DNA from: Moraxellaceae bacterium
GTDB taxonomy: Bacteria > Pseudomonadota > Gammaproteobacteria > Pseudomonadales > Moraxellaceae
NCBI GenBank assembly: GCA_004173455.1
Contig: SECL01000003.1
Location: 1-64,000, forward strand
Direction: 5' to 3'
Length of the DNA stretch: 64,000 nt
The position numbers were made by a program, and so were the translations under genes. The stretch's first letter is position 1. Every line of letters starts with the position of its first letter. Positions 29,757 to 31,948 of the stretch are shown piece by piece. Below the pieces are notes generated by a model. It saw only the letters and a program-made list of their open reading frames with translations, made no database searches and was not told the DNA's origin.

Positions 29757-31679
29757 TTACTCCAAAATATACCGGCCACGTTCGGCAACGGCGGATTGAA
29801 CCAGTTCAATGAAAGCTTCAATGGACATGGTTCCCAAATTTTTCCCAGTACGTGTACGCACGTTGACTGTGCCTTCCTCGACTTCACGGTCACCCATGAC
29901 CAGCAAGTAAGGAATACGTTCAAGGGTACGTTCACGAATCTTAAATCCGATTTTCTCGTTTCTCAAGTCATTGATGACGCGTAAACCACGTTGATTTAAC
30001 AGTTGAGTAACATTTTTGCACGCATCGCTTTGTGCATCGGTAATATTCATCACGCATGCCTGAACAGGCGCCAGCCACGGCGGCATATAACCGGCGTAGT
30101 GTTCAATAAGTATACCAATAAAACGCTCGAAACTGCCAAGTATTGCACGGTGTAACATAATCGGATGATCGCGATGATTGTCTTCAGTGACAAAATTGGC
30201 ATCCAGACGCTCCGGCATGTTGGGATCACACTGGATTGTACCGCATTGCCACACCCGTCCCAGACAGTCTTTTAAGCTAAATTCAATTTTTGGCCCATAA
30301 AATGCGCCTTCACCGGGCTGTAAATCCCACGGCAGACCGGCGGCATCCAGTGCATCAGCCAGTGCTTTTTCGGCAGTGTCCCACATCTCTTCACTGCCGA
30401 CCCGTTTTTCAGGGCGGGTAGACAGTTTCATTTGGACTTCTTCAAAACCAAAATCTTTGTAGACATCCAGCGTCAGTTTGATAAATGCAGCCACTTCATC
30501 TGCAATTTGTGCCGCAGTACAGAAAATATGCGCATCATCCTGCGTAAAACCGCGCACCCGCATAATACCATGCAGTGAACCTGACGGCTCATTACGGTGA
30601 CAGGAACCAAACTCAGCCAAGCGCAATGGCAGGTCACGATAGGATTTTAAGCCCTGATTAAACACCTGCACATGGCAGGGACAGTTCATTGGCTTCACCG
30701 CATAAGTACGGCTTTCGGAATTGGTAATGAACATGTTGTCGGCATAGTTGGCCGCATGTCCAGACTTTTCCCACAACACCAAGTCCACAACCTGTGGTGT
30801 ACGGATTTCCTGATAGCCATTGTCATGCTGAATCTTACGCATGTACTGCTCTAGCACTTGATAAATGGTCCAGCCATTGGGATGCCAAAACACCATGCCG
30901 GGCGCTTCTTCCTGCAAGTGGAATAAATCCAGTGCCTTGCCAATTTTGCGATGATCACGCTTTTCGGCTTCTTCAATGCGCTGCACATAGGCCGCTAGCT
31001 GTTTTTTGTCAGCCCAAGCTGTGCCGTAAATCCGCTGCAATTGCTCGTTTTTGGCATCGCCGCGCCAGTATGCGCCAGAAAGTTTGGTCAGTTTAAAGGA
31101 TTTTAAAAACCGGGTATTGGGCACGTGCGGACCACGGCACATATCCACGTATTCCTGATGATGATATAGCCCCATAGCTTGTTCATCCGGCATATCATCA
31201 ACCAGACGAAGCTTATAGCTTTCACCGCGTTCAGTAAAAGTTTTAATCACTTCTTCACGCGGCGTCATTTTCTTAATAACGTCATATTCCTCATTAATGA
31301 GGTCTTTCATGCGGTTTTCAATGGCCGCCATGTCATCTAAAGTAAAAGGACGTGGACTAAAAATGTCGTAATAAAAGCCTTCTTCAATCACAGGCCCAAT
31401 CACCATTTGCACGTCAGGAAACAATTGCTTGACCGCATGGCCAATCAGGTGCGCGCAGGAATGGCGAATAATTTCCACGCCTTCGTCGTCTTTGGGCGTG
31501 ATAATTTGTAAGCTGGCATCATCATTGATCAGATCGGACGCGTCACGCAATTGGCCGTTAACTTTTCCGGCAATGGTGTTTTTGGCAAGGCCGGGGCCAA
31601 TGCTCAAGGCGACATCCATGACTGATACAGGATGGTCAAATTGTTTCTGGTCGCCATTGGGCAGGGTAATTACAGGCAT
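29757..31679 (-). CDS. thrS: Threonine--tRNA ligase
   Basis: TGS domain, [57 protein letters not shown]. Confidence 0.97.
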
Positions 31680-31695
31680 AATGTATCCTTAAGGA

Positions 31696-31724
31696 GTGAT
31701 GCCCGCTACTATCGGGCATATCAC
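31696..31724 (-). promoter_or_regulatory. Candidate thrS translational operator: anticodon-arm-like hairpin in the 5' UTR
   Basis: mRNA GUGAU-AU-GCCCG-AUAGUAG-CGGGC-AUCAC ending 5 nt before SD AAGGA; 5-bp stem with 7-nt loop. Confidence 0.5.
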
Positions 31725-31948
31725 CGCGAGATGATAAAGGTAATGGCAAACAAAACAGCGTCCATGGAGCCTAAATTGTCGATTCAATAATGACCGGACA
31801 AGCTGAATAGGCGTCTAAAGCTGGCTTTGCCATAAAAAACGCCCACTTTAACAACTATTGACTGCAATGGCTAGCTAACCGAGGTTCTACAAGGAAAAAC
31901 AATGGCTTTGTGCCTTGTATGCGGCTAAAAAAGATCATGAACACATCC

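Follow-up and report, generated by a model that had tools for sequence, protein, structure and literature searches.

The leader of thrS in the window (the whole 64,000-nucleotide stretch of Moraxellaceae DNA analysed here) carries an element that is very probably a translational operator homologous to domain II of the E. coli thrS operator, a role in which it would be bound by threonyl-tRNA synthetase (ThrRS) and mediate repression. The E. coli thrS operator is a textbook example of tRNA mimicry. Our comparative analysis carries this case beyond E. coli, where it has been studied, and reveals a regulatory RNA that is widely shared and clearly covarying. E. coli ThrRS binds hairpins in the leader and prevents 30S binding (PMC11088916, PMC3858243), and domain 2 of the operator mimics an anticodon arm (PMC9976931).

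Architecture of the thrS leader element

The thrS gene (29757..31679, minus strand, as are all features in the window given below) is an open reading frame for a ThrRS of 640 amino acids, at once the regulated gene and the presumed repressor. It is flanked by infC downstream and an acetyltransferase gene upstream. The whole element spans 54 nt (31682..31735) and matches R1, a covariance model built from Moraxellaceae sequences only, with 73 bits (E = 6e-19). On the minus strand, GUGAU (31724-31720) and AU (31719-31718) are followed by GCCCG (31717-31713), the loop AUAGUAG (31712-31706), CGGGC (31705-31701), AUCAC (31700-31696), UCCUU (31695-31691), AAGGA (31690-31686), UACAUU (31685-31680) and the AUG at 31679, which is letter for letter the hairpin that a first-pass annotation of this DNA had reported.

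The geometry proposed there holds for the 7-nt loop, its register and the assignment of U33, A34, G35, U36 and A37; in tRNA numbering the loop (31706..31712) reads A32 U33 A34 G35 U36 A37 G38. The stem had been described as exactly 5 bp, a length that the alignments do not bear out. Instead, the covarying stem, termed P1, comprises seven continuous pairs with no bulged AU, formed by AUGCCCG, the anticodon-stem mimic (31713..31719), and CGGGCAU (31699..31705). The P1 3' strand is followed by CACUCCUUAAGGAUACAUU and the AUG. Immediately 3' of the arm is a CACU signature (31695..31698), whose CAC lies in an internal loop facing U31720 and whose U31695 pairs with A31721.

Below the arm lie two further helices. 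P2 pairs GGUGA, in which U31723 is bulged (31721..31725), with UCCU (31692..31695). P0 pairs AUCU (31729..31732) with GGAU (31685..31688), and the latter strand includes the GGA of the Shine-Dalgarno (SD) sequence AAGGA (31686..31690), with the AUG 6 nt further on. The folding energy of the 141-nt window leader is ordinary (z = 0.09), such that energy-based folding alone is uninformative and the case rests on comparative evidence.

Covariation supports three helices

A gap-free alignment of 41 distinct Moraxellaceae sequences (A1) supports P1, P2 and P0, each with covariation above that of shuffles and slides; sliding the partner strand by 1-3 columns abolishes the signal. For P1, 96% of cells in A1 are paired and two-sided changes occur at six of the seven pairs within the family and at all seven at the class level. 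The check for covariation across Moraxellaceae that had been suggested thus came out in favor of the hairpin, with the stem covarying and GU at positions 35-36 kept.

P2 was proposed independently by RNAalifold. It begins with A-2/U+4 and N-3/N+5, both canonical in every one of the 41 sequences, with N-3/N+5 occurring as GC, UG, CG or UA, and continues with a bulged U and GG/CY. A lower stem of GUGAU/AUCAC, as drawn in the first-pass annotation, was dropped in favor of these pairs: its GUG/CAC pairing is not kept, and N-3/C+1 is canonical in just 63% of sequences.

In P0, UA/GC and CG/GC exchanges leave all 41 sequences paired, and the next pair also changes to G-C and U-A. When placed on the ThrRS tree, P0 is AUCU/GGAU in Acinetobacter, the window's genus and some basal genera, GUCU/GGAC in Psychrobacter, and NGGU/GCC in Moraxella and a neighbouring genus, while a leader outside the tree (L035) has UUCU/GGAA, the 3' side changing each time to match. 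By our reading, this distribution suggests at least three separate compensatory replacements. The SD GGA is the P0 3' strand in Acinetobacter and the window's genus, and the SD is located further downstream of P0 in Psychrobacter, Moraxella and the distant relatives L089-L091. P0 is therefore foremost a structural helix, in which the SD came to be included in some lineages.

A folding model of the window sequence populates P0 to ∼12% when the RNA is free and to ∼0.9 when P1 and P2 are imposed, and leaves P2 unpopulated in the free RNA; for Acinetobacter, P0 rises from ∼70% to 97% on imposing P1 and P2. The low P0 and missing P2 in the isolated window sequence arise because a competing 6-bp hairpin, AUCAUC-UCGC-GGUGAU (31720-31735), wins over them. 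The four genomes of the window's genus share this hairpin letter for letter; Acinetobacter leaders do not form it.

Two other pairings near the start codon were considered and rejected. The palindrome UCCUUAAGGA, suggested earlier as a possible aid to occlusion of the SD, does exist, but comparison does not support it as the occluding structure: no more than 3 bp can form, enclosing a UUAA loop, and outside Acinetobacter and the window's genus the sequence is not conserved. The comparison instead backs P0 (AUCU/GGAU) over the SD. One fold paired the P1 3' strand with the start-codon region, which by inspection is inconsistent in Moraxella or Psychrobacter.

Further pairing potential is seen upstream of the element. 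In the window (31740-31860, alignment A3), eight complementary bases about 75 nt apart, AUGGCAAA...UUUGCCAU, are conserved in the genus around a variable intervening sequence. Some 10 nt upstream of P0, Acinetobacter leaders (L006-L031) carry another short hairpin, GAGG-NNNN-CCUC, whose strands show apparent compensatory changes and whose loop lacks GU.

The anticodon-like arm is widespread in Gammaproteobacteria

We fetched thrS loci through ThrRS, and hence blind to the hairpin, from genomes of the same GTDB family, yielding 99 leaders (genus names in this set come from named records with the same leader sequences and from our own reading). An arm was counted when at least 6 of 7 pairs enclosed a 7-nt loop and were followed by CACU; GU was not required. 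Such an arm is present in 81 of the 99 leaders. Loop positions 35-36 are GU in all 81, and none of the 99 yielded an arm with different bases there. In thrS-anchored samples it is also present in 44 of 56 other Gammaproteobacteria and in 69 of 80 named species, including Pseudomonas, Stutzerimonas, Halomonas, Marinomonas, Rheinheimera and Lelliottia; none was seen in the Comamonas, Variovorax, Lysobacter or Luteimonas leaders of the 80-species sample. Shuffled 160-nt leaders yield such an arm by chance in 0.85% of cases when the loop is unrestricted and in 0.01% when it must have GU, compared with 125 of 155 real leaders, although related sequences are not independent and the shuffles take no account of kinship.

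The invariance of CACU in these counts is partly by construction, CACU being the scan anchor, and the signature is also present in E. coli and in covariance-model matches obtained with no such anchor. G35-U36 occurs in all 125 and all 69 elements, where GU was no anchor, although it was one in the scans that supplied the sequences for the alignments. In contrast to these fixed positions, position 34 is occupied by all four bases among the family leaders. A free position 34 with fixed G35-U36 matches the N-G-U common to the threonine anticodons GGU, UGU and CGU. The tRNA-Thr(GGU) of the same genome has the anticodon arm CUCCC-UUGGUAA-GGGAG, and operator loops of relatives read UUGGUAU or UUGGUAG. 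As far as seen, no threonine tRNA of this genome has the A34 of the window loop in its anticodon.

The four genomes of the window's genus do not differ in the sequence surrounding the arm. Within it, the closing pair changes from G-C to U-A and the loop differs at positions 32, 34 and 38, and the element and its GU are retained despite these changes. Conservation in close relatives, on which the initial proposal depended, is thus observed. Mimicry of the tRNA-Thr anticodon arm, its central idea, is likewise supported by the invariant G35-U36 and the covarying stem, and the pattern fits autoregulation by ThrRS of the E. coli type.

The element was not found in 18 of the 99 family leaders, which belong to several deep-branching genera, one genus that is sister to all others (L080, L083-L085, L087) and some Psychrobacter. 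Four Psychrobacter leaders (L040, L042, L045, L074) lack an element that sister species have, and these appear to be losses. In several Gammaproteobacteria (L159, L173, L175, L177, L129), thrS appears to be directly preceded by a tRNA gene with the T-arm GGUUCGAGUCC, at ∼30-110 nt upstream. The thrS of a record titled Prochlorococcus AG-409-O23 (L291) is Gammaproteobacteria-like, and this record probably is a mislabelled or mixed single-cell assembly.

Homology to domain II of the E. coli operator

Judged by sequence and covariation, the window hairpin and E. coli domain II are homologues. The E. coli leader reads UUUGUA-U-GUGAUCU-UUCGUGU-GGGUCAC-CAC-UGCAAAUAAGGAUAUAAAAUG, and its GUGAUCU-UUCGUGU-GGGUCAC portion corresponds to the hairpin known as domain II. 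R1 matches this leader at exactly the known site, GUGAUCU-UUCGUGU-GGGUCAC-CACUGC, with 22.9 bits (E = 1.3e-4). We take structure entry 1kog to represent this domain, the essential ThrRS-binding hairpin.

Outside the family, R1 finds 14 loci at E ≤ 0.001, all of them just upstream of thrS, and no site other than that of thrS reaches significance in the window's genome (next best E = 1.4). Class-level genome scans with R1 gave few matches because this model carries lower helices specific to Moraxellaceae, and a second model, R2, and thrS-anchored retrieval were used instead. R2 finds one site each in 69 of 349 genomes of the phylum, all inside the class, and this proportion is a lower bound, since the stricter filters of large scans lose weak matches. 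Each of the 30 R2 loci examined is followed by thrS at a distance of 10-26 nt, and none of the matches examined belongs to another gene.

No Rfam family matched the window at the gathering threshold, or either leader at lax thresholds. We found no description of the element outside E. coli in the open literature, and earlier notice of it in other enterobacteria is likely.

A probable single-armed operator in Moraxellaceae

A scan for a second anticodon-like arm with strict geometry missed E. coli domain IV, and a looser scan was therefore run, which recovers this domain as UUUAGC-AUUUGUUG-GCUAGA, 85 nt upstream. At this setting, a loose arm occurs in 16 of 81 Moraxellaceae leaders versus 11.4 expected from shuffles (for L089-L091, among the 81, the main element itself lies inside the scanned stretch), and none was found in the window. 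This lack of enrichment indicates that the Moraxellaceae operator is generally single-armed. The description of the operator as minimal is therefore apt, because the second arm was not found with a scan that detects E. coli domain IV.

Second arms are seen elsewhere. Most Pseudomonas leaders (L228-L264, L130-L132) have a second 7-bp/7-nt hairpin with GU at 35-36, for example UCCUGCC-ACUGUGA-GGCAGGC, located 77-93 nt upstream of thrS, which is the likely counterpart of domain IV. Another second arm, AUGGCUU-CUUGUAU-AGGCCAU, comparable and likewise with GU, occurs in Rheinheimera and relatives (L301-L303).

Proposed mechanism and alternative explanations

The window ThrRS is 64% identical to E. 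coli ThrRS (1qf6). Residues N502, N575, R583, E600 and R609, which we take to be the anticodon-contact residues, are all identical in the two enzymes. Around residues 333-335, beside a catalytic-site cysteine, the window enzyme reads NCPCH and the E. coli enzyme NCPGH.

By homology with E. coli, we infer a cycle in which free ThrRS, when it exceeds its tRNA, would bind the 7-bp arm through loop G35-U36 as if it were the tRNA-Thr anticodon arm. Bound ThrRS would then keep the 30S subunit from loading at the SD and AUG, which follow within a few nucleotides, and rising levels of uncharged tRNA-Thr would compete for the enzyme, such that thrS translation resumes. ThrRS binding with steric exclusion of the ribosome is the most likely mechanism. 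In Moraxellaceae the single arm would stand on the short helix P2 and the outer helix P0. Because the P0 3' strand is the SD in the window's genus and in Acinetobacter, ThrRS binding would there also favor closing of P0 over the SD, and the folding model suggests that this closure could add SD sequestration to repression. With a single arm, unlike in E. coli, the operator might repress less strongly or in a somewhat different manner.

If the conserved hairpin did not bind ThrRS but instead helped to initiate translation or to stabilize the mRNA, acting for instance as a spacer between a standby site and the SD, this would account for its precise placement between the SD and a segment further upstream. 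Such a role also has a precedent in E. coli thrS, where the hairpin interrupts a bipartite ribosome site (PMC3858243). Nonetheless, an invariant G35-U36 beside a free N34, in an arm that is free in sequence but paired, is the pattern of threonine anticodon-arm mimicry, and the element is found before thrS only; we consider a pure spacer improbable. Covariation in P0, and its inclusion of the SD in Acinetobacter and the window's genus, could alternatively mean that SD sequestration in P0 or an alternative fold suffices for regulation, driven for example by temperature or ribosomes, with the arm a passive scaffold. This is very improbable, given that Psychrobacter, Moraxella and L089-L091 keep P0 though their real SD is further downstream, and that the helix has just 4-5 bp including a U-G pair.

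An independent, lineage-specific origin of a minimal ThrRS operator, close to the earlier suggestion that this lineage has its own version, would fit the single arm and lower helices unlike those of E. coli. However, the arm, the Y/CAC internal loop, A-2/U+4 and the position before the SD are common to E. coli, Pseudomonas, Halomonas, Marinomonas and others, and a model trained on Moraxellaceae only finds E. coli domain II. Separate invention is therefore extremely unlikely, and the suggestion gives way to a homologue of domain II that is widespread in Gammaproteobacteria. That the leader belongs to a synthetase gene might also bring to mind a T-box or a transcription attenuator, an idea with almost no chance of being correct: Rfam gives no match even at E up to 5, the leader has no terminator-like site, and its loop presents an anticodon-like GU, not a threonine codon. 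A consensus promoter scan of the leader gave no match.

The domain II homologue acting as a ThrRS-bound translational operator thus remains our preferred reading. A more ambitious reading, which we put forward tentatively and regard as doubtful when all of its parts are taken together, is that these elements form a class-wide RNA family with a constant ThrRS arm and a lower part rebuilt in each lineage. There would be two arms in E. coli, Pseudomonas and Rheinheimera-like genomes and one in Moraxellaceae, where ThrRS on P1/P2 might close P0 and so sequester the SD directly, instead of by the bipartite steric exclusion of E. coli. In the window's genus, the alternative hairpin holding the 5' strands of P0 and P2 might further create a two-state switch.

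The covariance model can annotate the element in Acinetobacter, Moraxella, Psychrobacter, Pseudomonas and Halomonas. Its natural variants, single-armed or with the SD within a helix, help to distinguish the requirements of ThrRS from those of the ribosome. Autoregulation of thrS is predicted for Acinetobacter and Pseudomonas, and this bears on work with ThrRS inhibitors.

Comparison with known tRNA mimics

The window element and E. coli domain II have in common the gene, a 7-bp arm, a 7-nt loop with U33-G35-U36, a single pyrimidine opposite CAC, A-U and N-N pairs below the arm, CACUG, and a position just before the SD. They differ in the lower helix, which in E. coli is an unbulged 6-bp UUUGUA/UGCAAA and in Moraxellaceae is GG-(U)-NA/UNCY with the covarying P0. 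The spacing to the SD is shorter here, and the loop anticodon is AGU rather than the CGU of E. coli. Domain IV provides E. coli with a second anticodon-like arm, whereas none was found in most Moraxellaceae. The SD of E. coli thrS is reported to be unpaired (PMC3858243). However, simple folding of the E. coli segment pairs its U-run with AAGGAU, and thus the contrast in P0 is not certain.

With the anticodon arm of tRNA-Thr, the operator arm has in common the stem-loop geometry, U33, G35, U36 and A37; it is two pairs longer below the 5-bp stem, and the window loop has A34. The elements in yeast AspRS mRNA and of the yeast ThrRS-RPC10 pair likewise involve a synthetase that binds an anticodon-arm mimic in an mRNA, but they are eukaryotic, and their sequences and targets are unrelated to the thrS element (PMC9976931, PMC9956033).
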